From the NCBI GenBank assembly GCA_027627685.1, contig CP091241.1, forward strand, positions 2,728,396 through 2,792,395: a stretch of 64,000 nt of DNA. The letters are read 5' to 3'. Both the position numbers and the translations under genes were made by a program. This document shows, piece by piece, positions 2,049 to 31,852 of the stretch. How positions within the stretch are numbered: the stretch's first letter is position 1; each line of letters begins with the position of its first letter. This DNA comes from Hyphomonadaceae bacterium ML37. GTDB lineage: Bacteria; Pseudomonadota; Alphaproteobacteria; Caulobacterales; Maricaulaceae. The notes under the pieces are model-generated. The model saw only the letters and a program-made list of their open reading frames with translations, was not told the DNA's origin and did no database searches.

Positions 2049-5000
2049 CTATTCAATGTCCAATGTGACGGCGCGCGCGAAACTACGCCCCGCAACGGCG
2101 CTCAGCTGGTAAACGGCGACAGACAGAACGGCTGGCGCCGCGCCGAAATCGGCCAGGATGTCGGCATGGGCATAGACAACGCTCGGGCTCGAAGCCGTCA
2201 GCGTGCGTTTCACCGCGCCGCCGGGAGCATCCAGGATATCGACCTCATAGGCCTCGCTCGCCTCGCCGAGCGGGACGAGCCCGGTCCCGTCCTTCAGCTC
2301 GCCGCCAATGCGCGTGCGACGGATCCAGCTGAGCGTGATGTCTGCCGGGCTGCCGCTCTTCACCGCGCGCACGTCCCACGGTGCATAGGGCTTGAGGTCT
2401 CGGCCCGTCTGGCTCTGGACCAGCGTCTCGGCGTCCTCGAACAGCGTGCCGAACCCCACCGCGCGCCAGGACCGCACAAGGCCCAGATCGCCAAGTGCGG
2501 CAACCAGCGTCTCGATATCGTCGGGGTCGAGCAGGACAAAGAGCTCCCCGGCCGCATGGCCCTCAACAAACACGTCGGTGCCGCGCCGCCCGCGCAGGAG
2601 GCCGGTGAGCGTGTAGGACCCATCCGGGTTCAGGGTGACATCGCGGAACTGGATGATTTCCGGCCCGCCATTGGCTTTGAGCAACAGGGCGCCATTGGCG
2701 CCATTGACCAGAGCCTCCTGCGTGACGCTTTCGAGCCGCTCGCCGCCTGTGGTCATGAACACCTGCAGGGCGTTGTCTTCATCGGTGCAGAACGCCGATC
2801 GCGGACTGCCGAGGGCATTGGCCGCAGCGCCCCAGGCCGCCTCGCTCAACGCCCGCCCGGCCTGCGCCCATGCGGAACCGTCCGCGCTGGCATAGAGCGC
2901 AGCGCCGGGCCAGCCCGGACCGCCGAACCCGCCCATCAGATAATAGACCCGCGAGCCGGCCCCGCCGGCGTCATCCACATCACGCAGGAGCGGCAGATCA
3001 GGCAGGATAAGGCGCGTGGCGGCGTCAGCGCCGATCGTCTGGACAGGGGCGCCCGAGCCGCCATCGGCGATGACCGAGGACACATAGCTGGCGGCGTCCT
3101 GCGAGACGCCCTTCATCGCCAGAGTAAAATCTGCGCCCACATCGATCCGCGCAATCCGTATACGGAAGATGGAGCCCGAAGCGAGCACCACATCCACGAC
3201 GTCAGTGGGATCAAGCCGCAGCCAGTCGGGCGCCAGCTCAGCCTCGCAGGCGCTGCGTTCGACCCATGCGCTGAAGAGCGTCCTGGCGGCGATACGCTTG
3301 GCGGTCGTGGCGTCGATCGCGAGCGCCAGCTCGAGGCTTGTCTGGTTGCGCGAGTGCATGGCGGCCAGCGGCAGGGAGGCGCGCTTCTCGCTCTGCACGC
3401 CCTGAGCATAGTCGCGATCGCGGTCCATATAGGCGACCGACACGCGCTCTGGCAGCTCGACCTCCTGGGTGCGCCGCTCGCGCCAGCTCTCCCCCGTGCG
3501 GGTATCGAGCGCCAGGAGGTGGTGAGCCTCGATCGCGGCGACCGGCGCGCGCCCCCGGGTGCGAAAGCGCAGCGTGTCATCGCTCTCGGCAGCGTCGAAG
3601 AAGAAGGCCTGCGCCAGCGGCTCTATGGCACCGCGCACGCTGGTCTGGCGCGCGATCACATAACCGGGCACGGACATGGTGAGCTCGCCCACATCGATGT
3701 CAGCCAGCCCCAGCCCTGCGCGCGCGCACAGATCGGCGACGATGGAGGAGAGCGCCTCTCCCTCTCCGCCGCCGCGATTGAGGAAGAGGCGCGCCCAGCC
3801 ATTGCTGGCGCGCACCAGAAGCGTGTCGGTGACCGCGTCATAGACCTGCGCGCCGAGCTCGCTGACCTGCGACGGCCAGATCTCGTCGAGCACGAGTTCG
3901 CCTGTGGCCGTGTCGAGCTGGGTGACGCGCGCCGAGCGCATCAGCGTCCAGCGCTGGCCCCGCAGGCGGGCCTGAGCGAAAAACGAGCCGTCCTGATTGA
4001 TCTCGACGGGGACAGCGGTCTTCCAGACGATCCCCGCATCGGCGCGCCACTTGACCACGTAGATCGTCCCGGCAGAACCGGCGTTCGACATGCGGACCTG
4101 GAAGATGACGCTGTCGTCGGTGGCGTCATAGCTCAGCGCGCCGGCGCTCGTAAAAAACCCCGTCGCGCCTGGCTCGATATCACTGGCGCTGAAGTTGGCC
4201 ATTTTCTCGAAGGTCACGCCGAGTGTCTGGCCGGTCAGAGCGTCATGGCGCGCCAGCGCCGAGACCTGCAGGCGGTAAAGGCCGATGCTCTCATGATCGC
4301 CGCTGGTGGCGCTGGCGAGGATCCAGCCCTGGCCGAAACCTTGCGCGACCAGACCGCCCACCACGCCGCACACACGCGGCTCATCCACGCTCTCCCCTGC
4401 GCCCCAGACATAGCTCATCGTGTCGGCGCGCAGGAGGCCCACATCATCAAAGAGCCCGCCCGTCAGAAGGAAGTCGGACCGCCCTGACGCGCCATAGGCC
4501 GAGATCATCGCCATCCACCGCACCGCCGCAAAGCTGGTGGTGGTGTTGGAGAGCCCGGTTCCCCCGGAGCCAAACCGGGCCACCTCCTTTAGCGCATTGG
4601 GCTCGATGCGAAGGATCGGCCGGGTATTGCCCGAGCCGACGGTCAGATAGAGATGGCCATCCTCGCCGCAGAACAGTGTGGAGGGCGAACCGGCAGGCTC
4701 GGTGCTGGCGATATCGGCCATGCGTGCCTGGCGGTCCTCGGCCATAGTGCGCAGACTGAACCGGCGCACGCCCGCCTCCAGCGGGTCCAGGCTGGTGGTC
4801 AGGAAATAGCCATGCCCGCGCCGCCAGTCGACAGCGAGCTCGCCGGTCTGGTAACCGTCAAGGACGCCGCCTTCACCGCCCGTGATGAAGTCGATCAGCT
4901 GCCAGGGCTTCTGGTCTGCGCGCCTGTACGTGATCTCGGCGGTGATGTTGGGGATGCGGTTGCCGAAATCGGCCAGCGCCAGATCCTCGAACACGATGAC

Positions 5001-5552
5001 GCACAGCCCGCGATGGGCGGGCGCGCGGCCCTGACCCACATGGGCCTCGATCAGGGGATCGGGCAGCTGGGTCTCGCCGCCGCCATGGAAACGAAAGCGC
5101 AGGCTCGCTCTGGCGACATCCGGGCCTGATCCCGTCTTGTCGTAGATCAGCTTGCCATCGGCCCAGAGGCGCAGCACGTCCGCAGCCGGGCCCTCGCCAA
5201 AGCTCAGCGCGAACGAAGCGAAATACGCGTAGCTCACGGAGGTCTGGGTCGCGGTGGCCGCGCCCTTGCCGCCAGATCGCGCGCGCGTGACGTTCTGCTG
5301 CTCACGGATCCCGGACGACCAGATCATGTTGCCGGCCATGCGCACCGTGCCGTAACCGATCGGGATCGCTGCGCCATAGGCCGAGGACGAGACCGTCAGA
5401 TCGCCAAGGCGCGGGCCTTCGGTGGTGATGTTCTGGCCTCTGGCCGGAAACAGCAGGCTGCCAATGGCCGAGCCTGCAAGCCAGCCTGCCTGCCAGCCAA
5501 GACCGACAGCGGAGCCGAGCGCGGCGCCGCCTGCTGCAACGAGAATGGCCAT
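2049..5552 (-). CDS. Large host-specificity / baseplate hub tail protein (GTA gp15/lambda J-like)
   Basis: The 1167-residue protein starts with a small hydrophobic Gly/Ala stretch and then PIGYGTVRMAGNMIW, a pattern seen at the N-terminus of RcGTA-type host-specificity proteins. The C-terminal third holds a Phage-tail_3-like region (GPEIIQFRDVTLNPDG, LTGLLRGRRGTD). The gene comes immediately after the NlpC/P60 locus, the standard order DUF2460-DUF2163-NlpC-hub of this tail type. The protein would form the tail tip and contact the host envelope. The middle of the protein (about 200-640) is beta-rich and less conserved, as expected for a receptor-binding part. It is shorter than typical GTA hubs, and I see no clear TIM-barrel lysozyme region. 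Confidence 0.8.
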   Translation of the reverse strand: MAILVAAGGAALGSAVGLGWQAGWLAGSAIGSLLFPARGQNITTEGPRLGDLTVSSSAYGAAIPIGYGTVRMAGNMIWSSGIREQQNVTRARSGGKGAATATQTSVSYAYFASFALSFGEGPAADVLRLWADGKLIYDKTGSGPDVARASLRFRFHGGGETQLPDPLIEAHVGQGRAPAHRGLCVIVFEDLALADFGNRIPNITAEITYRRADQKPWQLIDFITGGEGGVLDGYQTGELAVDWRRGHGYFLTTSLDPLEAGVRRFSLRTMAEDRQARMADIASTEPAGSPSTLFCGEDGHLYLTVGSGNTRPILRIEPNALKEVARFGSGGTGLSNTTTSFAAVRWMAMISAYGASGRSDFLLTGGLFDDVGLLRADTMSYVWGAGESVDEPRVCGVVGGLVAQGFGQGWILASATSGDHESIGLYRLQVSALARHDALTGQTLGVTFEKMANFSASDIEPGATGFFTSAGALSYDATDDSVIFQVRMSNAGSAGTIYVVKWRADAGIVWKTAVPVEINQDGSFFAQARLRGQRWTLMRSARVTQLDTATGELVLDEIWPSQVSELGAQVYDAVTDTLLVRASNGWARLFLNRGGGEGEALSSIVADLCARAGLGLADIDVGELTMSVPGYVIARQTSVRGAIEPLAQAFFFDAAESDDTLRFRTRGRAPVAAIEAHHLLALDTRTGESWRERRTQEVELPERVSVAYMDRDRDYAQGVQSEKRASLPLAAMHSRNQTSLELALAIDATTAKRIAARTLFSAWVERSACEAELAPDWLRLDPTDVVDVVLASGSIFRIRIARIDVGADFTLAMKGVSQDAASYVSSVIADGGSGAPVQTIGADAATRLILPDLPLLRDVDDAGGAGSRVYYLMGGFGGPGWPGAALYASADGSAWAQAGRALSEAAWGAAANALGSPRSAFCTDEDNALQVFMTTGGERLESVTQEALVNGANGALLLKANGGPEIIQFRDVTLNPDGSYTLTGLLRGRRGTDVFVEGHAAGELFVLLDPDDIETLVAALGDLGLVRSWRAVGFGTLFEDAETLVQSQTGRDLKPYAPWDVRAVKSGSPADITLSWIRRTRIGGELKDGTGLVPLGEASEAYEVDILDAPGGAVKRTLTASSPSVVYAHADILADFGAAPAVLSVAVYQLSAVAGRSFARAVTLDIE

Positions 5553-5555
5553 GGA

Positions 5556-5699
5556 TCAGCCTCGGGTGGAGCGGAACCTGAACGCGAACCTGACCCTTGC
5601 CGGCCATTCACCCGCATAGGGCTCCTCGATCACCTTGCGGCGCGTGGCATGGGCGTGGAGGAGATGGGGATGGCCGAGCCGTTCAGTGAGCTGAGAGGC
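5556..5699 (-). pseudogene. Detached 3' end of a second NlpC/P60 gene
   Basis: The minus-strand frame ending at 5556 encodes LTERLGHPHLLHAHATRRKV and continues to RFAFRFRSTRG, nearly the same as the last 40 residues of the intact NlpC/P60 protein (7376-7813). It has no start codon, catalytic Cys or upstream domain: an in-frame TAG lies just upstream. Its stop lies 4 bases from the ATG of the large tail gene, so it is likely the original 3' end of the NlpC gene, cut off when the flagellin-like cassette arrived. Start position is approximate. Confidence 0.8.
5578..5680. repeat. Copy A of 103-bp direct repeat (NlpC/P60 3' end)
   Basis: This segment matches 7386-7488 in the same orientation over 103 bases with about 8 differences by eye, mostly synonymous-looking changes in the NlpC frame. 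The two copies bracket the flagellin-like gene. Confidence 0.85.
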
Positions 5700-5709
5700 C
5701 GGCTAGAGG

Positions 5710-7245
5710 TCAAAGACTCAACCGTCCCGGCGTGAACCCGCCGATATTGATGGAGTCGAAAAGAGCCAGGCTGTTTGACAGGAGGCCGATCTGGGCGCTC
5801 ATGATGCCGGTCTGTGTCTGCATCATCGCCTGTGCAAGCTGGATGCGGACGTCTGCGGCCGCTTGGACGGCGCCCACCCGGTCAATGTCGCGATCAACCA
5901 GCCGCGCCACGCCTGCATCGATGATGTCGGTCATGCGCTGCTGCATACTCATTTTGGCCGCGATGGAGCGCGATGCGCTGCCATATTGCTGTGCGACCTG
6001 GCGGACATTGCCCAGCGACTGATCAAGGGCCGACATCTTTGAGCCCCAGTCCGCCGTGGTGATCTCGGGGCGCCAGTTATGCACGCCCCGCTTCATGGCG
6101 CTTGTCGCCTGCGCCACTTCCTGCCCAGATAGAACCCGATCCCAAAGAGCCAGATCACTATATCGGCCTTCATTGATCCTTATTTTACCAGCGCTAAGAA
6201 GCGGGCTATTATCTGTGAAGCTACCGACGAGTTTACCGTCGTGATACAGCCTTATATCGCCGACGTTATTGGCTTGATTGATGCCTTCCGTAACAGTTAT
6301 ATTCGACCACTCTCCAGGTTTTAAATATATTTGAGTTCCTATTGGACCAATTCCGTATCTGATGAATATTTTTCCATCACTTTTATTCATGTCGAAACGA
6401 ATTCTAATACCACCACTTTCATTTACATTCACATGGTAATTAAACAATTCCAACACGCCCTGAGAACCATCAATATCATTGGTGTCGACCATAACGTTAA
6501 AGGAAATCGTCCTATCTCGAAAAAATGGTATTTCACCCACCGTTGTCACACGTGTGGACCCTTGTGTATTGATACTCTGGTCAGCGTCTGGACCGTTGGA
6601 GCCATACAGGTCTCCGCTTACGAATTCAGCGGAGAATAGCGCTGCGCCAAGCCCCCCCGTCCAGGCAAGATTGGCAAGCGATCCCTCGAACGCAAAGGCC
6701 CCGCGCAGGCTTTCAACCGCCGGCGGGACCAACATGTCCAAACTTCCGGTGACGCCGTAGGGCCCCGGGCGCAGATCTGCAGCGGCCAGATTCGTCGCGC
6801 CTGGCAGGATGACATCGCCTGACTGGCTGGCCGCTTGCGGGTTGAGGAGATTGCGCCCGCCGAATGTCGCCATTTCGGTGATCTGGTTGATGCGCGGGAT
6901 GAGCGCGCCATACTCCTGTGCCAGCTTGGCGCGATGATCTTCTGGCAGGCTTGCGTCCTGCAGGCGCGCCGACAGCGCCCTCATCTCCATGAGCGTGTCC
7001 TCGATGGCCTCCACGGCGGCAAGGGTTACGTTGACGAGCCCATCGGCCCGTTCCAGCGCACGGATCTGGTTGAGATGGTTGAGGCGCTGGCTGAGCGCAT
7101 TGGTCACCTGGATGGCCGAAACGGCATCCATGGACCTGGCCGGGCGCTGGCCATGGGACGTCGCGCTCGCAACCGCCGACGATTGCGAGGCTTGTGCACT
7201 CGACACGGCACCTTGAGGCGCGGCATAGGCCGACACCGATGTCAT
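5710..7245 (-). CDS. Flagellin-like protein with inserted LamG domain (prophage cassette)
   Basis: The 511-residue protein has a flagellin-type N-terminal helical region (about 38-135, with VNVTLAAVEAIEDTLMEMRA, then INQITEMATFGGRNLL) and a flagellin-type C-terminal region (about 400-500, with IIDAGVARLVDRDIDRV and QIGLLSNSLALF). Between them, at about 235-385, is a LamG/concanavalin-like domain (GDIRLYHDGKLVGSF, YSDLALWDRVLSGQEVAQ). That middle part (about 6120-6660) is clearly AT-richer than the flanks. A GGGAG ribosome site precedes the ATG. The gene splits the usual NlpC-to-hub junction of the tail operon and is flanked by the 103-bp repeat. Flagellins assemble through these terminal helices, so a filament or tail-surface display of the LamG lectin is possible. 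Whether it is a virion part, a host flagellar subunit or a decoy is unknown. Confidence 0.8.
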   Translation of the reverse strand: MTSVSAYAAPQGAVSSAQASQSSAVASATSHGQRPARSMDAVSAIQVTNALSQRLNHLNQIRALERADGLVNVTLAAVEAIEDTLMEMRALSARLQDASLPEDHRAKLAQEYGALIPRINQITEMATFGGRNLLNPQAASQSGDVILPGATNLAAADLRPGPYGVTGSLDMLVPPAVESLRGAFAFEGSLANLAWTGGLGAALFSAEFVSGDLYGSNGPDADQSINTQGSTRVTTVGEIPFFRDRTISFNVMVDTNDIDGSQGVLELFNYHVNVNESGGIRIRFDMNKSDGKIFIRYGIGPIGTQIYLKPGEWSNITVTEGINQANNVGDIRLYHDGKLVGSFTDNSPLLSAGKIRINEGRYSDLALWDRVLSGQEVAQATSAMKRGVHNWRPEITTADWGSKMSALDQSLGNVRQVAQQYGSASRSIAAKMSMQQRMTDIIDAGVARLVDRDIDRVGAVQAAADVRIQLAQAMMQTQTGIMSAQIGLLSNSLALFDSINIGGFTPGRLSL

Positions 7246-7375
7246 GACCGCTCCCTTCTAGAGCCATTTCACCAAGGCGCACTCATTTTAAATTGCGGTA
7301 TTTACCAGCACTTTCTGAATCCAAAGTGAATCGAAATTTTCTCCACTACTGGAAATAGCGCGCGCATCCCACCCA

Positions 7376-7813
7376 TCAATCGAATCTGAACGCGAACCTC
7401 ACCCTGGCCAGCCATTCGCCGGCATAGGGCTCCTCGATCACTTTGCGGCGCGTCGCATGGGCGTGGAGGAGATGGGGATGGCCGAGCCACTCGGTCAGGA
7501 AGCCGCAATGGCAGGGATAGGCGTGATCAGCAAAGACGAGCACGTCGCCGGGCCGGGCGTCGGGGATCGCGACGGCGTCCATGTTGTCCCGGAAATGCGC
7601 TACGAACCCTTGCCCCTGCGCGCGGCGGCCATAACCGGTGGCGTCATAGTCAGAGAGATCAAGCGCATGGGCGACACACACCACCAGCCCCACGCAATCG
7701 ATCCCCGCCCGTGTGCGCCCCTGATGGCGCCAGGGTACGCCCAGCCAGCCGCGCGCCTCGGCGACTATCGCCTCGGGTGTGACGGTCTTGGACGTGATGG
7801 CCTCAGCGGGCAT
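7376..7813 (-). CDS. NlpC/P60-family tail peptidase
   Basis: The 145-residue protein has the NlpC/P60 catalytic cysteine in GIDCVGLV (Cys40) and a His in the CHCGFLTE segment (about 102), followed by a conserved ATRRKVIEEPYAGEW tail. In RcGTA-like tails this peptidase (gp14-like) sits between DUF2163 and the hub and is thought to cut peptidoglycan during DNA entry. Its start overlaps the end of DUF2163 by 11 bases. The 3' end differs slightly from the detached copy at 5556 (ending RFAFRFD), as if it was rebuilt when the neighbouring cassette inserted. Confidence 0.85.
   Translation of the reverse strand: MPAEAITSKTVTPEAIVAEARGWLGVPWRHQGRTRAGIDCVGLVVCVAHALDLSDYDATGYGRRAQGQGFVAHFRDNMDAVAIPDARPGDVLVFADHAYPCHCGFLTEWLGHPHLLHAHATRRKVIEEPYAGEWLARVRFAFRFD
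7386..7488. repeat. Copy B of 103-bp direct repeat (NlpC/P60 3' end)
   Basis: This partner of 5578-5680 lies in the same orientation inside the intact NlpC/P60 gene. Between the copies lie the flagellin-like gene and its AT-rich upstream region. Confidence 0.85.
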
Positions 7814-8666
7814 CGGGATAGCTCATCATTGCGTCCTGCCCGGGCACGTAGGGCTCGCCGCGGAAGTTGAGGACGTTGGCGAAGCGGGTGATGCAGGTAT
7901 CGAGGCGCTTGTCGCAGCCGGGGTGGATGGCGAACGCGTCGCCAGCCTCTATGGCGTACGGCATGGGCAGGAAGAGCTCGATCTCGCCGCTCGCCTGGTT
8001 CCAGGCCTTCACCTCGATGGAGCGACCGGCATTTGAGCCGGTCTGCCAGGTGAGAACCCCGCCCGCAAACCAGCCATCCACGGCGTCCGGCGCGTCCACA
8101 TCAGCGGTGAACTGCGCGCGCGAGGTGACGGCGAGCACGGTTCCAGGCCGGGTCCAGGCCGGGTCGGTGATCGCCACCTTGCAGCGATGGTCGCCAAGGT
8201 CTGCGCGGCATTCGGGGCTGTAGAGCTCGCCAATGCGCTGGGAGAGCGCCTGGCTCAGCCCACGCAACTCGGTGCGGAACACGCCCTGTTCGCTCAGCAC
8301 CACCTCGCCGAACCAGCCCCGGCGCATGCGAAGGGCGCCCATGGATGGATCGGCCCAGTTGATGAGGAAGATGCGCGCCTCGGCCTGATCAAACAGACCC
8401 GCGCGCAGTTCCTCCTCGGTAATTGCCTCGTCATCGAACACGCCTTCCACATCGAGATTGTCGACGCTGAGGCTTGCATCATTGGAGATGGCCGTACGCG
8501 AATAGCCAGAACTTGCCTTGTAAGTCTCACCTTCGAAGGGCAGATCGCGGTCATGGTCGGTGAAGAAGAACTCGCGGCCATCCACGCGCGTGATGCGCCA
8601 GCAGGTGGCAAGCGTGGTGACAGGCCCTGCCAGGTGGGCGGCGAGCGCAGGTGAGGTGGACTTCAT
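7803..8666 (-). CDS. DUF2163 phage tail protein (GTA gp13-like)
   Basis: I place the start at 8666 (MKSTSPALAAHLAG), giving 287 residues; the frame stays open further upstream but would run into the opposite-strand antitoxin gene. Family signs are FFTDHDRDLPFEG near the N-terminus, the Cys pair in YSPECRADLGDHRCKV and the C-terminal PGCDKRLDTCITRFANVLNFRGEPYVPG. The cysteine-rich end resembles RcGTA gp13, which binds an iron-sulfur cluster and holds the distal tail and hub together. It lies between DUF2460 (across the FitAB cassette) and NlpC/P60. The ribosome site is weak, so the start is uncertain. Confidence 0.85.
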   Translation of the reverse strand: MKSTSPALAAHLAGPVTTLATCWRITRVDGREFFFTDHDRDLPFEGETYKASSGYSRTAISNDASLSVDNLDVEGVFDDEAITEEELRAGLFDQAEARIFLINWADPSMGALRMRRGWFGEVVLSEQGVFRTELRGLSQALSQRIGELYSPECRADLGDHRCKVAITDPAWTRPGTVLAVTSRAQFTADVDAPDAVDGWFAGGVLTWQTGSNAGRSIEVKAWNQASGEIELFLPMPYAIEAGDAFAIHPGCDKRLDTCITRFANVLNFRGEPYVPGQDAMMSYPDAR

Positions 8667-8695
8667 GGGAGAACCCGTGCGTTTCGTGGGAGCCC

Positions 8696-8731
8696 TTGAA
8701 AAGCACGCTCCAGATGCGATATCATGATATC
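8696..8731 (+). promoter_or_regulatory. Promoter and palindromic operator of the FitAB-like module
   Basis: TTGAAA (8696-8701) is followed after 18 bases by TATCAT (8720-8725). The -10 box lies inside a perfect 14-bp palindrome, GATATCATGATATC (8718-8731). This fits autoregulation by the ribbon-helix-helix antitoxin encoded just downstream. Confidence 0.6.
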
Positions 8732-8747
8732 CAATATGGAGGCGCCA

Positions 8748-8996
8748 ATGGCCCAGCTTGTGGTCCGCAATCTCGATGATGACGTGAAGGCGAAGCTTCA
8801 GCGGCGCGCGCGCCGCCATGGCCGCAGCACCGAGGAAGAGGTGCGCGACATCCTGCGCGGCGCCGTGCGCGGCGAGGACGCGCCCCTGCCCCCGCTCGGC
8901 TCGCGGCTGAGTGCGCGGTTTGCGGGGATCGGTCTTGACGAGGATATTCGCGAGCTGCGCGGTCAGCCCGCCCGGCCTGCCGAGTTCAACACTTGA
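8748..8996 (+). CDS. FitA/VapB-like ribbon-helix-helix antitoxin
   Basis: The 82-residue protein starts at the ATG at 8748, which has a GGAGG site 5-6 bases upstream; two earlier in-frame ATGs lack one. AQLVVRNLDDDVKAKLQRRA followed by STEEEVRDILR is the FitA-type ribbon-helix-helix DNA-binding fold. The C-terminal part would bind and block the PIN toxin encoded next. Its stop overlaps the toxin's TTG start. The pair lies on the opposite strand to the tail genes, between DUF2460 and DUF2163. Confidence 0.85.
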   Translation: MAQLVVRNLDDDVKAKLQRRARRHGRSTEEEVRDILRGAVRGEDAPLPPLGSRLSARFAGIGLDEDIRELRGQPARPAEFNT

Positions 8997-9412
8997 TCCT
9001 CATCGATACCAATGTGCTGTCCGCCCTGATGCGGCGCGAGCCGGATCAGGCGGTCTCGGCGTGGCTGGACGCCCAGCCCCCAGAATCCATCTGGACCACC
9101 GCCATCACCGTTTTCGAGATCCGCTATGGACTTGAGATCCTGCCCGAGGGGCGCCGGCGCAAGGCCCTCGAAGAGGCGTTCGCCCTGGCGCTTGGCGAGG
9201 ATTTCGACGGACGGGTTCTTGCGTTCGATCAGGCCGCCGCAGATGCGGCTGCGCTCATTGCCGCTCGCCAGCGTGAGGCTGGCAGGCCTGTCGAGATCCG
9301 CGATGTCCAGATCGCGGGCATCGCCGCATCGCGCAAGGCGGCGCTCGCCACAGGCAATACCCGTCACTTTCAGGACACCGGCATCACGCTCATCGACCCG
9401 TGGGCCGCTTAG
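8993..9412 (+). CDS. FitB/VapC-like PIN-domain toxin
   Basis: The 139-residue protein begins at a TTG that overlaps the antitoxin stop (TTGA), so it is translationally coupled. It has the PIN-domain acidic residues: Asp in LIDTNVLSAL (position 5), Glu in TVFEIRYGLEILP, and Asp in the VEIRDVQIAGIA segment. FitB/VapC toxins are Mg-dependent ribonucleases. Its last bases overlap the convergent stop of the DUF2460 gene by 4. As a plus-strand module in a minus-strand late operon, its transcript would be antisense to tail mRNA only at its edges. Confidence 0.87.
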   Translation: MILIDTNVLSALMRREPDQAVSAWLDAQPPESIWTTAITVFEIRYGLEILPEGRRRKALEEAFALALGEDFDGRVLAFDQAAADAAALIAARQREAGRPVEIRDVQIAGIAASRKAALATGNTRHFQDTGITLIDPWAA

Positions 9413-14461: not shown

Positions 14462-14701
14462 GGGATCACTCCTGTATGGGTTTATGAGCGCGTCCGATCT
14501 GGTCAGCCGCAGATGCGGCGTCGGCGGGGCGCTGATGTGGGATGTGGGCGACGTGGACGAAATCTATTTCGGCAGGGCGCGCAAGGGGAAGCGCGGTCGC
14601 GGCGCAACCGATAGCGCTCTTCCCAATGATACAACCTGTAACCTTTGATTAGTGCTGAACGTCGATACTGGCGGGAGTTCAACAGTGCGGAGGAATGTCC
14701 C

Positions 14702-15247
14702 ATGCCGTTTCAGTTCATCACTGCCGGATTGATTGCGGCCGCCATGCTCGCCAGCCAGGCTGACGCCCACGGTTCAGATGAGGCCGGCACCCAAGCCATG
14801 AGGGCATATTCCGCTGCGAACTTGGGTGTTATTTCGTCCGCACGCGATGAGCGAGAAGAGCGTTTTGAGCGCGCGTTTCCATGGTTGCGCTCCATCATGG
14901 AAGAGTACACCGAACAGCGCCGCGCCGTTGGAATTTATGGAAAATGTTATCGCTTTGACTACAGCACGCTGGTTATTGTCGCTGTATCCGATCCGCAGTT
15001 TGTGACTGAATCCATGATCCTTTTTGGAGCCGCATACACACAATACATGAGTGACGTCACACAGGCCGTTTCTGACGTGCTGGCGGCGGGAGACTACAGC
15101 CAGCTCGAAATGGATTTGCTGCATCATCATATTCATTGGGTAGGGTTCGTGTACGGAATGGAGTTTGGGTCAAGCCGACAGCCCGCCCCGGATCAGTGCG
15201 CTTCGGCTGAACAGGTGCTGAGCGATTATGTAAGGGTGAACGACTAA
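14702..15247 (+). CDS. Secreted protein of unknown function (prophage cassette)
   Basis: The start at 14702 has a GGAGG site 8 bases upstream and yields a clear signal peptide (FQFITAGLIAAAMLASQADA, cleavage after ADA). The mature protein is about 160 residues with two cysteines (GKCYRF and DQCASA) that could form a disulfide, and a His-rich stretch LLHHHIHWVG. I recognise no family. The gene lies on the plus strand between tail tube and tail terminator genes and has a lower GC content than they do, so it is probably a late-acquired lysogenic-conversion gene. Its product would act in the periplasm or outside the host. Confidence 0.65.
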   Translation: MPFQFITAGLIAAAMLASQADAHGSDEAGTQAMRAYSAANLGVISSARDEREERFERAFPWLRSIMEEYTEQRRAVGIYGKCYRFDYSTLVIVAVSDPQFVTESMILFGAAYTQYMSDVTQAVSDVLAAGDYSQLEMDLLHHHIHWVGFVYGMEFGSSRQPAPDQCASAEQVLSDYVRVND

Positions 15248-15857: not shown

Positions 15858-15973
15858 CCCGTGTCTCATGATCTGCAGCGAATGAAGCGATTTTCTCCGC
15901 ACGTCATGCGGCAAAAATCTTGTCTTTATCCGCAGGAGGGCATAGCTTTCCCGGCAAATCCTGCGGAGAAATC

Positions 15974-17092
15974 ATGTATATCTGGGAGCACACCACCTGG
16001 CCGGCATTCACGTGGGACGGCGCGCAACTGCTCGCCCGGCTGGGCGATGCCCGTCACAGGCAGGGCCGTTTCCTCGGCCAGATGAAGCGTCTCGGCTTTG
16101 ATCTGCAGCTCGAGGCGGAGTTTCGTGCAACGGTCGAGGACGTGCTCAGGAGCAGCCAGATCGAAGGCGAGCTGCTTGACCTTTCCAGCGTCAGGTCCTC
16201 CGTTGCGCGCCGGCTTGGCCTTCCGCAAGGTGGCTCAGGGCCATCAGACCGGCGTGTTGAAGGCGTGGTCGAGATGATGCTCGACGCCATGCATAATCAC
16301 CGCGCGCCTCTGACCAGCGAGCGCCTGTTTGGCTGGCATGGCGCTCTGTTCCCGACGGGCTATTCGGGGCTTCACAAGATTGTGGTCGGCGCGTGGCGCA
16401 CCGATCATGACGGACCGATGCAGGTCGTCTCCGGCCCGCTCGGGCGCCAGAAGGTCCATTTTCAGGCGCCGCCTGCTGATCAGGTGGCGCAAGAGATGGA
16501 GCGCTTCCTGGCCTGGTTAAACGATACGCCGCCGATGGACGCACTGGTGCGCAGCGCCATTGCCCATCTGTGGTTCGTGACCATCCATCCCTTCGAGGAT
16601 GGCAATGGCCGCATGGCCCGCGCCGTCGCCGATCTGGCCATCGCGCAGATGGAAGGATCCGGCCAGCGCTTCTACAGCATGTCAGCGCGCATCCAGCGTG
16701 AACGCGCGCGTTATTACGAGATGCTCGAGCGCACCCAGAAAGGCTCGCTGGACGTCACGCTCTGGCTGGCATGGTTTCTTGAGTGCTTTGGCAGAGCCAT
16801 CGATGACGCCGAAGCCGACAGCACGGGGGTCCTGCGCAAGGCGGACTTCTGGCGGCGCGCCGCGCATGAGCCCCTTTCGGCCCGGCAGAAGGATGTCCTC
16901 AACCGCTTTCTTGACGGGTTTGAGGGCAATCTGACAGCCAGGAAATGGGCGTCCCTGGCAGGATGTTCGGTCGACACCGCACAGCGCGACATCAACGACC
17001 TTCTTGCCCGCAGCCTTCTCATCCGCAATCGCGGCGGCAGCAGGCGAACCAGCTATCGTCTGGCGGGGTTCGAGCCAGACGGCGCCGCCTGA
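15974..17092 (+). CDS. Fic-domain AMP-transferase-like protein, class II autoinhibited
   Basis: The start at 15974 has GGAG five bases upstream and gives 372 residues. The Fic core motif HPFEDGNGRMAR is intact at about 205-216, so the catalytic His and the nucleotide-binding Gly/Asn/Arg are present. An inhibitory-helix motif of the form SxxxEG (SSQIEG, about 60-65) precedes it, as in class II Fic proteins that block their own ATP site. The C-terminus has a winged-helix-like segment (ARKWASLAGCSVDTAQRDIN). Such proteins AMPylate or deAMPylate targets; the target is unknown. It lies antisense in the late operon and overlaps the convergent DUF6441 gene by 40 bases. Confidence 0.87.
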   Translation: MYIWEHTTWPAFTWDGAQLLARLGDARHRQGRFLGQMKRLGFDLQLEAEFRATVEDVLRSSQIEGELLDLSSVRSSVARRLGLPQGGSGPSDRRVEGVVEMMLDAMHNHRAPLTSERLFGWHGALFPTGYSGLHKIVVGAWRTDHDGPMQVVSGPLGRQKVHFQAPPADQVAQEMERFLAWLNDTPPMDALVRSAIAHLWFVTIHPFEDGNGRMARAVADLAIAQMEGSGQRFYSMSARIQRERARYYEMLERTQKGSLDVTLWLAWFLECFGRAIDDAEADSTGVLRKADFWRRAAHEPLSARQKDVLNRFLDGFEGNLTARKWASLAGCSVDTAQRDINDLLARSLLIRNRGGSRRTSYRLAGFEPDGAA

Positions 17093-18100: not shown

Positions 18101-18481
18101 ATGACACTTTCAGATCAGATCATTCACCAGTCCAAGGCTGGCGTCGTGCTCACCAAGGCGACCTGCCGAGCGGCAGACCGGCTCGGCCTATCAGGCCGCC
18201 AGCTGGCTGAGATAGTCGGCGTGTCAGAGGCGACCGTATCACGCTGGAAAAGGGGCGAAAGCGTGCTCGAGCCGGGAACGAAGCCCTTCGAGCTTTCAGC
18301 CCTTCTCGTCAGGGTCTTTCGGTCTCTCGACGCGATCACCGGAGGGGACGAGGCTGTCGCACGTCAATGGCTTGCAGCCCCTAATTCAGCGCTTGCGGCT
18401 CCTCCGGTCGAGCGCATGTTTCAGGTACAGGGGCTTGTCGATGTCACAACGTATCTGGACTCACGACGCGCTCCGCTCTGA
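18101..18481 (+). CDS. Xre/MbcA/ParS-type antitoxin of a RES module
   Basis: The 126-residue protein has an Xre-like helix-turn-helix (LSGRQLAEIVGVSEATVSRW, about 28-47) and a C-terminal DUF2384-like toxin-binding region (AVARQWLAAPNSALAAPPVERM and GLVDVTTYLDSRR). The ribosome site is GGGAGAG just before the ATG. Its end overlaps the toxin gene by 41 bases in another frame. RES-Xre antitoxins block the toxin active site and repress the operon. Confidence 0.9.
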   Translation: MTLSDQIIHQSKAGVVLTKATCRAADRLGLSGRQLAEIVGVSEATVSRWKRGESVLEPGTKPFELSALLVRVFRSLDAITGGDEAVARQWLAAPNSALAAPPVERMFQVQGLVDVTTYLDSRRAPL

Positions 18482-19217
18482 TGCCCAGCCCTACGAGGGC
18501 AAAGCATGGAGATTTGTTGAGGCTCAGCATCAGGTTTCGACCCTGAAGCTCGTTGATAGCCTCGATGAACAGAGAACGCTTGAGGACGTCCTCGAAGCGA
18601 CCAAGCCTCCGCTGCCGGAAGAGTGCCGCCACCTCGACTACCTGCTTGCCACCCCGTTCCGCTACCGCCCCTACCCGGTCGGTTCGAGATTCCGTCGAGC
18701 AGGATTGACGCCGGGCGTCTGGTATGGAGCCGAGCACCCAGAGACCGCGGCAGCTGAGATGGTCTTCTACCGCTTCTTATTCTACGCAGAGAGCCCGCAG
18801 ACCCCGTTCCCCGATGATGCGGCCGAGTACACTGCGTTCTCGGCAAAAGTGGCGACGGGCGTTGCGCTGGACCTGACGACTGGAGACCTTGGCGCAAACC
18901 ATTACGCCTGGACCCATCTCACAGATTACGAGCCTTGTCAGGCACTGGCAGATGGCGCGCGAGAAATTGACGCCGGACTCATACGTTATGCCTCCGTGCG
19001 CGACCCTGCGGGCAGGGCAAACCTTGCGGTGCTCACCTGCCGCGCCTTCACCGCTCCACAGCCGCTTGAACGGCAGACCTGGCGCATCCGGATTGGCCAG
19101 ACAGGCTCACAGGCCGTGCGTGAGCACCCAAAACTTGGTCTTGAGTTCGCCAAAGATGGCTTTGCGCCCGACCCACGTCTTCAAGGCATGATCTGGAAGC
19201 GTCCCCGCGCACGGTGA
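18441..19217 (+). CDS. RES-domain toxin (NAD-depleting ADP-ribosyltransferase-like)
   Basis: The start at 18441 (MSQRIWTHDALRSDAQPYEG) lies inside the antitoxin gene with a GGGG stretch upstream and gives 258 residues; an earlier in-frame ATG lacks support. The RES pattern is visible: WRFVEAQHQVSTLKLVD, then SRFRRAGLTPGVWYGAEHPE with the Arg and Tyr of the active site, and AAAEMVFYR. RES toxins degrade NAD, halting growth. The longer form, with an N-terminal EECRHLDYLLATPFRYRP segment, is the usual one. The gene ends 11 bases from the convergent major capsid stop. Confidence 0.9.
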   Translation: MSQRIWTHDALRSDAQPYEGKAWRFVEAQHQVSTLKLVDSLDEQRTLEDVLEATKPPLPEECRHLDYLLATPFRYRPYPVGSRFRRAGLTPGVWYGAEHPETAAAEMVFYRFLFYAESPQTPFPDDAAEYTAFSAKVATGVALDLTTGDLGANHYAWTHLTDYEPCQALADGAREIDAGLIRYASVRDPAGRANLAVLTCRAFTAPQPLERQTWRIRIGQTGSQAVREHPKLGLEFAKDGFAPDPRLQGMIWKRPRAR

Positions 19218-29293: not shown

Positions 29294-29299
29294 ATGGGT

Positions 29300-31852
29300 A
29301 TGGACGTATCCGGGCTCTGGCTCTGGTTGGCTCCTAGGGTTGATCCGCTGGTGCAAGCCGCCGCGGCAACGATCGTAGCGTTCGCCCTTGGCTTCGTCGC
29401 CTTCATCATCTTTCGCTTCTTCGGAGGCCGGTTTCTGGAGCAAATTGTCGTTCCAGCGGCGCGGTCCGTCGATGGATTGCTAAATCGCATAGCTCCTCGG
29501 ACGGGCATCCAGCTTGAACATTTCTGGATGCGCTGGGGCGTATACTGGCTTGTTTTTATCGGACTGGCGGGAGTCGGCACCCTTGCCCCCACGCCGCTTG
29601 GTCTGGTGGCTGTCTTGGCTGCGCTGATCGCCATACTCGCCATCTACCGTCAATGGGAGCATGACGAAACAGAGCGGCGCATGCTGGAAGATGCAGGCGA
29701 CACCATTCCTTTCCGAAATGACTACCGCAACGAGCTTCTGATCAGCCTGGTCGTCATGATGGGCTTTTTCGCGTTGGGATTTGCCAGGCTCGAGGAGCTT
29801 TACCCACTCTATGCCGGCGATCCGCATCTGCCCTTAGCTTCAACGGCAATGTTCATATGGGGCGAGTTTCTGAAAGCCGTCCCGCTGGTCGATGCCGCGG
29901 AGATTTATGGCTGGAGGAACATCAGCGGCCTTGAAGCGTCAGGTGGTGTCGGCCGGTCTGCCACCTTTATCCTCAGGGTTGTATTCGATCTGGTCATCAT
30001 CGCTGCCCTTATTCGTATGGTAGACATTATCCGGCGGATCACCAGCGGGCTTGACCTGCGCCAGATTGAGCGTGACTTGGCGACAGGCGACATCGCCTCG
30101 ATCAATGCAGCCATTGCAAGGCTTGAAGAACTCGCCCTTCGAGGGCGCACGAACGCTTTACGGGCGCTGACCGATATCGCTCTGGCTCGCAGGAGCGACG
30201 AGCGGTTAACAGACTTGGACCTGCGCGAGCGAGCAGCAATTGCCCTATTGGCTGTAACCGATCGGCGCGGCGACATCGCTATCGGTTTTGTTGTAATCGA
30301 AAGCCTTCATGCGCTTGACAGTCTCCGGAACCGCAGTGTGAGCCCCGCAGAATGGGCCATGACAAAGAAAAATCTGGGCAATGCACTTCGAGTGCTTGGC
30401 TCGATGGCGGGGGACCCTAGTCGGCTTGAGGCAGCAATAGAGGCGTTAAATAGCGCATTGGATTATTATTCCCATGAGCCTGATTTGACGACATGGGCCA
30501 TTACAAAATCAGGCCTCGGCAACGCGCTTCAGGAGCTTGGCAAGATAAGAGGCGATCAATCCATGCTAGAGAACGCCGTTCAAGCTTATTCCAGCGCACT
30601 TGATGTCCTTACGCGAGAGACACACCCGACGGACTGGGCAGCGACGCAGATCAATATGGGATTGGCCCTGCAGGGACTTGGATGGATAACTGGCAACCCG
30701 GAGCTACTGGAAGATGCCGCTCATGCTTACCGCAATGCTTTGGAAGTTTACACGAGGCAGACCAACCTGGTCGGATGGGCTACGACGCAGAACAATTTGG
30801 GTCTGGTGCTCCTTTCATTAGGCCGGATGGTCGGCAAGATCGCTAGGGTGGAGGAAGCAGTAGAGGCTCATTGTAGCGTTCTCGAAGTGTATTCTCGTGA
30901 GTCAAACCCTGCTGGTTGGGCGATCACGCAGCACCATATAGGTAACGCCCTTGCAGGTCTGGGCGAAATGACTGGGCACCCAGCGCCATTGGAAAAGGCT
31001 ATAATAGCCTATAAACTGGCTTTGGAAGTACGCACCCGTGCAGCTAACCCTGCTGGCTGGGCAGCAACTCAAAATAATTTGGGTCTTGCGCTTGCGCTTT
31101 TGGGTGAGATGGTGACGGGAGTCACGCATTTGACGGCGGCCATTGAGGCATTCCGGTGCGCGCTGGCAGTTCGAACACGTGAGGCCAATGCGGCAAAGTG
31201 GGCGATGATCCAAGCTAACCTTGGAAATGTCCTTGTGGATCTTGGCACAGTCACGAGCGATGAGACTTACTTGTATGAGGCTGTTCAGGTATGTCGAAAC
31301 GCCTTGGAGATTTTTACACTAGAAGAGATGCCAACGGACTGGGTTATGGCTCAAAACACACTGGCCCTTGCTTTGCGAAGCATTGGGGAAATGCATGAAG
31401 ATCGCAATTTGGTTGAAAATGCAATTGAGATTTTAACAATAACCTCGACAGCTCCCATCGTGCTCAAAAATTCTATGCTTTTTGCGATGACGCAGACCAA
31501 CCTTGGCCGCGCGTTGCAAATTCTGGGAGAAATGGCGGCTGATCCAACGCGCCTTCAAGCAGCAGCCAATGCCTACCGAAACGCCTTGAAAATCTACACG
31601 CCTGAGGCCAGTCCCGCACACTGGGGAATAGCACAGGAGAAGCTTGGCGATACGCTTGTGTCTCTCGGGCGGATGGCAAGAAGTCCAAGCCACCTTGCGG
31701 AAGCCAAGGCTGTATTTGAGGCGCTTGCAACCTTCCGGAAGGAGCGAGGCGAAGCCAAGAAAGCTCACGCAGCGCGAGAAAGGATCAGGGAAATCGAACG
31801 ATTGTTGAGAGAGATGCCGACCGCAGCACCACCAAGTGCAGCATCTGACTGA
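29300..31852 (+). CDS. Membrane-anchored ten-repeat TPR protein (candidate defence or exclusion protein)
   Basis: The protein is 850 residues from the ATG at 29300, which has AGGGGG eight bases upstream; an ATG at 29294 is too close to it. The first about 250 residues hold four to five hydrophobic segments (e.g. AAATIVAFALGFVAFIIFRF and LVVMMGFFALGFARLEELYP). From about 340 to 830 there are ten copies of a roughly 48-residue TPR-like unit with the pattern W-A-x-T-Q-x-N-L-G-x-A-L-x-x-L-G. Such Trp-Ala TPRs resemble kinesin-light-chain-type repeats that bind peptides. No enzymatic domain is seen. It lies alone between AlpA and the IS5 element and is lower in GC than the phage genes. A sensor or exclusion role is a guess. 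Confidence 0.75.
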   Translation: MDVSGLWLWLAPRVDPLVQAAAATIVAFALGFVAFIIFRFFGGRFLEQIVVPAARSVDGLLNRIAPRTGIQLEHFWMRWGVYWLVFIGLAGVGTLAPTPLGLVAVLAALIAILAIYRQWEHDETERRMLEDAGDTIPFRNDYRNELLISLVVMMGFFALGFARLEELYPLYAGDPHLPLASTAMFIWGEFLKAVPLVDAAEIYGWRNISGLEASGGVGRSATFILRVVFDLVIIAALIRMVDIIRRITSGLDLRQIERDLATGDIASINAAIARLEELALRGRTNALRALTDIALARRSDERLTDLDLRERAAIALLAVTDRRGDIAIGFVVIESLHALDSLRNRSVSPAEWAMTKKNLGNALRVLGSMAGDPSRLEAAIEALNSALDYYSHEPDLTTWAITKSGLGNALQELGKIRGDQSMLENAVQAYSSALDVLTRETHPTDWAATQINMGLALQGLGWITGNPELLEDAAHAYRNALEVYTRQTNLVGWATTQNNLGLVLLSLGRMVGKIARVEEAVEAHCSVLEVYSRESNPAGWAITQHHIGNALAGLGEMTGHPAPLEKAIIAYKLALEVRTRAANPAGWAATQNNLGLALALLGEMVTGVTHLTAAIEAFRCALAVRTREANAAKWAMIQANLGNVLVDLGTVTSDETYLYEAVQVCRNALEIFTLEEMPTDWVMAQNTLALALRSIGEMHEDRNLVENAIEILTITSTAPIVLKNSMLFAMTQTNLGRALQILGEMAADPTRLQAAANAYRNALKIYTPEASPAHWGIAQEKLGDTLVSLGRMARSPSHLAEAKAVFEALATFRKERGEAKKAHAARERIREIERLLREMPTAAPPSAASD

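Follow-up and report, generated by a model that had tools for sequence, protein, structure and literature searches.

A flagellin-LamG gene in the tail operon of an alphaproteobacterial prophage is most likely captured host cargo from a family with a common shell and different cores

The window analyzed here is a stretch of 64,000 nucleotides from Hyphomonadaceae bacterium ML37, and it contains a prophage whose tail genes follow each other on one strand in the order tape measure, DUF2460, hub, NlpC, flagellin-LamG gene and megatron, with capsid, protease, portal and terminase genes beyond them. The flagellin-LamG gene (5710..7245, minus strand) is an uninterrupted open reading frame of 511 aa, real and co-stranded with its neighbors as the earlier note on this DNA had described it, although the interval given there (5556-7813) spans nlpC as well. 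The upstream neighbor nlpC (7376..7813, minus strand) encodes an NlpC/P60 tail peptidase (Pfam, E 2.7e-7) assigned to the minor tail proteins of phrog_329, and is itself preceded by the baseplate hub gene (7803..8819, minus strand; Pfam Phage_phiJL001_Gp84_N, E 1.8e-62). Downstream lies the megatron baseplate gene (2049..5552, minus strand), recognized by Pfam Phage-tail_3 and by NCBIfam GTA_megatron with 501.5 bits, which is under the cut-off of 800. A promoter and terminator scan upstream of the flagellin-LamG start returned none, sigma-70-type promoters included. Since no tyrosine integrase was found in the 64-kb window and transposase-like genes were recognized by eye in the early region, the prophage may be defective.

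Further genes of the same prophage were noted. A plus-strand gene pair at 8724-9412, inside the tail operon, encodes a PIN-domain protein as its second member and is probably a toxin-antitoxin system; a similar pair is present in one prophage of genome G028. Plus-strand Fic/DUF4172 and RES-domain genes (15920-17092 and 18372-19217) lie amid the head and tail genes, and a plus-strand ORF of 200 aa with low GC3 (14645-15247) sits between tail genes. In the early region, an ORF of 852 aa (29294-31852) has no PHROG match at E≤0.001.

By searching the 511-aa protein against Pfam, we found Flagellin_N and Laminin_G_3 above their cut-offs and a weak COG4_N match as the only other hit at E≤1. First, Flagellin_N covers residues 15-135 (6841..7203, minus strand; E 3.2e-8, 34.2 bits for a cut-off of 26.6) and hhalign matches residues 49-139 to the host flagellins (97.1%), so that the N-terminal D1 helices of a bacterial flagellin are present. 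Second, Laminin_G_3 covers residues 253-378 (6112..6489, minus strand; E 1.4e-6, score 29.0 for a cut-off of 27.6), which bears out the LamG center proposed in the earlier note. The AT-rich center described there is also found, with a GC content of 0.464 at 6001-6500 compared to 0.60-0.67 in the remaining bins between 5501 and 8000. Third, residues 400-471 (5833..6048, minus strand) match the solved flagellin FljK (phmmer, E 0.0039), and aligning the family profile with the flagellins of the host itself gives a match at about residues 401-471 (hhalign, 83.7%). This C-terminal signal is weaker than the N-terminal one and Pfam reports no Flagellin_C at E≤1; a C-terminal D1 helix is nevertheless weakly recognizable at the expected place. 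When compared to solved structures, a profile built from nine family copies gave 21 matches at E≤0.01, of which 20 are flagellins matched by the N-terminal part, FljL being the best (E 3e-10), and the last is a sialidase entry (4c1w) matched in the center (E 0.0068).

The extremities of the protein are less clear. The Pfam match runs in register from residue 15, and the hhalign matches begin at residues 48-49 and end near residue 471, which suggests that D0 is divergent and clearly recognized at neither extreme. Of the two terminal flagellin assembly regions given in the earlier note, the N-terminal D1 and a weaker C-terminal D1 are recognized, and D0 not clearly so. Because of this divergent and not clearly detected D0, it is doubtful that the protein assembles into an ordinary filament. 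AlphaFold models had mean pLDDT values too low for use (40.8 for the single protein and 37.8 with a two-row alignment). Compared with the Caulobacter-type flagellins FljL, FljN and FljK, whose structures are solved, the window protein shares flagellin D1 homology but is longer (511 aa versus about 270), with a diverged D0, a longer C-terminus and a LamG core.

Gene order and homologues (hub, NlpC, megatron) liken the operon to lambda/GTA-like tail operons, from which it differs by an additional gene at the nlpC-megatron junction, not seen there in the 37 relatives examined. Of 61 genomes, 53 contain megatron relatives (E≤1e-10); beyond the window's own, the closest are in G012 (94%) and, twice, in G028 (81 and 77%). 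The flagellin-LamG gene is missing from the junction in all three of these related prophages, where 3, 3 and 66 bp separate the nlpC stop from the megatron start. Likewise, in 34 of 34 viral contigs retrieved with the megatron protein, only 18-86 bp lie between the end of the nlpC match and megatron, and none encodes the gene within the retrieved stretch; at 99% identity across the junction these contigs fall into 31 groups and, as some may share hosts with the genomes, they are not fully independent. In addition, the flagellin-LamG protein has no PHROG match at E≤1 and no match at E≤1 among 50,697 phage records. No relative turned up in viral contigs, whether these were scanned with the protein itself, with the family alignment or with the host flagellins, knowing that seeding by short peptide patterns can miss distant ones.

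The earlier note had proposed a protein that polymerizes on the tail or in the host flagellum and displays its LamG domain, or that acts as a decoy against flagellum-binding phages. As a virion protein, it would assemble on the phage tail and use the LamG core for host binding, or serve as a decoy. Strand and position are indeed those of tail genes, and lectin-like domains are known in tail fibers. However, the same tail genes occur without the flagellin-LamG gene in every one of the prophages and viral contigs above, no PHROG or phage record contains it, and the family resides in host chromosomes, as described below. We therefore consider a role in the virion very improbable.

Relatives were found in the window's own genome (G000) and in G002, G010, G012, G068 and G180. 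G000 has three further full-length copies, at 731332 (p731, 66% identity), 1467807 (64%) and 1466067 (39%), and at E≤0.1 Laminin_G_3 matches no gene of this genome outside these four; its four ordinary flagellins are grouped at 567-572 kb. When no more than three candidates were scored in each genome, the family was detected at E≤1e-25 in 6 of 398 genomes in a survey of the order and in 1 of 385, the window's own, in a survey of the class. Plasmids gave two weak N-terminal matches, and genome contigs one Rhizobium protein (27%). Altogether 13 copies were seen, of which G000 has four, G010 has five, and G002, G012, G180 and G068 have one each. Three of them are broken, namely that of G012, the last of the five in G010 and that of G180 (L101:9240-12074), which is split by transposase-like genes, so that the family is dispensable. 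Nine of the 13 were aligned (alignment A1), leaving aside the three broken copies and that of G068. Among the ten intact copies, Flagellin_N exceeds its cut-off in seven and stays under it in three, whereas Laminin_G_3 exceeds its cut-off in five (four in G000 and one in G068), falls below it in one G010 copy (E 0.015) and is not reported at E≤0.1 in the remaining four. We thus take a LamG core as established for the G000 and G068 copies only.

Several of these copies share a neighborhood. p731, its G012 ortholog, the G010 array and the G002 copy all lie near a CsgG gene (identified by Pfam in G000 and G010 and by tblastn in G012 and G002) and a gene for a curlin-like repeat protein that has no Pfam match, together with LysR, PAS, EAL/TPR, histidine-kinase or DUF2336 genes in varying combinations. 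Four copies, at 1466067 and 1467807 and in G068 and G180, are away from such a locus. The G010 array (L055:5561-13709) comprises five tandem family genes with conserved ends and differing centers, the fifth being broken, and a short sixth 5' fragment.

The p731 locus also links the family to phage. The window's genome contains, at 716.1-716.6 kb, remnants of a hub gene (residues 215-338) and of nlpC (residues 1-64), and at 732.9-733.0 kb, directly after p731 and on the same strand, nlpC residues 106-144. A block of about 16 kb with DUF2336, PAS, LysR and p731 genes is thus flanked by two remnants of a decayed sibling nlpC. In G012, nlpC residues 106-144 likewise come after the ortholog of p731, and no hub fragment was found around it in the G012 stretches searched. 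The same block shares a second gene with a prophage: the G012 prophage carries, antisense among its tail genes, a DUF2336 gene (L088:3241-4464) with 84.8% identity over 1228 bp to the chromosomal gene of the p731 block near 716.7-718.0 kb. It occupies a tail position other than that of the window insert, and both the window prophage and one G028 prophage lack an insert there. No direct repeat of at least 40 nt accompanies it, in contrast to the window insert.

The window insert itself is bracketed by a direct repeat of 117 nt. The first copy is the 3' part of nlpC (7382..7498, minus strand) and the second lies between the flagellin-LamG gene and megatron (5574..5690, minus strand); the two are 90% identical with a spacing of 1808 bp. 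The nlpC and megatron reading frames are both kept open, the window NlpC having 145 aa compared to 144 in G012. The leader immediately 5' of the flagellin-LamG start codon (7246..7266, minus strand) is identical to that of p731 at 21 of 21 positions, with 95% identity to the G012 copy and 86% to that of 1467807. A short stretch 5' of the megatron start is nearer to the p731 locus than to the sibling phage, on few informative bases. We rejected a transposon insertion on the grounds of the length (117 nt) and 90% identity of the flanking repeat, and by eye no transposase-like ORF of at least 80 aa was seen between the two repeats. The gene most likely entered by recombination of the phage nlpC-megatron junction with a p731-type host locus, in which an nlpC fragment comes directly after a flagellin-LamG gene; such an event would leave the duplicate of the nlpC end with both tail genes still open. 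This route through shared phage sequence, and the direction of transfer, are what we infer from the arrangement.

The nlpC fragments could also be read in the opposite sense, with the gene as original cargo of this phage group and the p731-type chromosomal copies as prophage remains. The fragment after both p731 and its G012 ortholog, and the position of p731 between two pieces of decayed nlpC, would fit such an origin. Against it, the gene is in no phage record or viral contig, and the 29 window genes compared with the stretches around the G010, G002, G180 and G068 copies gave no other match; an origin in phage is therefore improbable in our view. Three further chromosomal copies, copies near the CsgG/curlin-like locus and a copy between sibling-prophage fragments make captured host cargo, and not a new virus tail part, the most likely nature of the window gene.

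By comparing the window gene with its paralogs, we found that differences are concentrated in one part of the sequence. Nucleotide identity to p731 is 87-100% over codons 1-140, falls to 41-68% over codons 141-378 (6112..6825, minus strand; hereafter the core) and returns to 82-89% thereafter, the flanks (hereafter the shell) ranging over 82-100%. Counted as differences, window and p731 differ at 85 of 822 shell positions and 326 of 702 core positions (p 3e-58), and window and 1467807 at 104 of 822 and 337 of 699 (p 1e-53). In contrast, the orthologs p731 and G012 differ at 87 of 822 shell and 61 of 714 core positions (p 0.19), this control being a single pair whose G012 member is a broken gene. 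Since shell and core differ alike in that pair, its core is not fast-evolving, and we rejected fast core evolution in place of exchange. The same pattern appears elsewhere: copies 2 and 4 of G010 share 94-95% in their shells and 39% in the core, and the broken fifth G010 copy is 94% identical to the G002 copy over 105 core residues and 84% in the N-terminal shell. Exchange of cores and homogenization of shells around different cores would each yield such a contrast. The unexpected result is thus modularity, paralogs having a common shell and different cores whereas the tested ortholog pair retains its core. It is the most unusual feature of the gene, and it is not visible from one window.

The shell of the window gene has a dN/dS of about 0.36 (N-terminal) and 0.19 (C-terminal) against p731, values below 1 that could also come from gene conversion. 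These values matter for another alternative, in which a recombination accident brought in an inert passenger that serves neither prophage nor lysogen. Against this alternative stand the intact window copy and its shell ratios, subject to the gene conversion just mentioned. Yet the gene does not seem to be maintained by the phage group, being absent from all related prophages and viral contigs examined, 3 of the 13 family copies are broken, the start lacks an upstream sigma-70-type promoter and the prophage may be defective. Taken together, we regard an inert passenger as a serious alternative but an unlikely one.

Two known systems resemble parts of this arrangement. FRphi prophages, known from Enterobacter, encode a flagellin (FliCP, together with TldR) that replaces the host's (PMC13418256). 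The window prophage is alike in being of siphovirus type with a flagellin-type gene inside it, which in FRphi lies close to the tail-fiber locus, and in the alteration of the host surface by lysogeny, a feature of FRphi and a proposal here. It differs by its LamG core, multi-copy host family and diverged D0. We rejected a TldR-type control, since PF01385 (TnpB-type) has no match at E≤0.01 in the window's genome and the neighbors of the gene are nlpC and megatron. Flagellins with inserted functional domains, including flagellinolysin, are known as well (PMC5595980). The ten most frequent inserted domains in that source include vWFA and sialidase but not LamG, which may figure among its 61 domains. 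Flagellinolysin likewise encloses a different domain in its variable region between conserved flagellin ends. The window family has LamG in place of a metallopeptidase (Pfam reports none at E≤1 in the variable region), combines paralogous cores with shared shells and is encoded apart from ordinary flagellins, and its filament assembly is putative. Judged by titles and abstract openings, the literature gave nothing relevant besides these two. Prophage flagellins and functional-core flagellins are thus already published. The statement in the earlier note that no phage system of this design was known to be described is partly wrong, in view of the FRphi prophages.

What was seen directly, that is the paralogs, the empty junctions, the duplication, the neighboring prophage fragments and the shell/core contrast, leads us to favor, with somewhat more confidence than doubt, a prophage-carried member of a host family that was captured through the nlpC-megatron junction, would be displayed by the host and would give the lysogen a different core. 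The family would encode flagellin-like proteins whose conserved shell consists of the flagellin D1 segments of both termini and whose core, of LamG type in the window copy, is exchangeable. Display by the host is possible in principle for a flagellin-like protein with a lectin-like center. The host would export it and the protein would join or decorate a flagellum-like or adhesive surface structure with its core exposed, so that the lysogen would gain a different core by lysogenic conversion. A surface change of lysogens through the prophage copy is our best guess. More tentatively, and with doubt prevailing, the family may be a modular surface system in which recombination swaps cores among paralogs and prophages carry core alleles back and forth between the chromosomal adhesion locus and lysogens. 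Core exchange is open to direct test, given the contrast of paralogs with the ortholog pair. Should the protein be displayed, this rare family would be a natural scaffold in which a flagellin-like frame presents lectin-like domains that can be interchanged, the prophage being one carrier, and gene capture from a host adhesion locus would be a second route beside the remodeling of flagella by prophage flagellins. If the modular reading is true, phages would be vehicles of host surface-lectin diversity.
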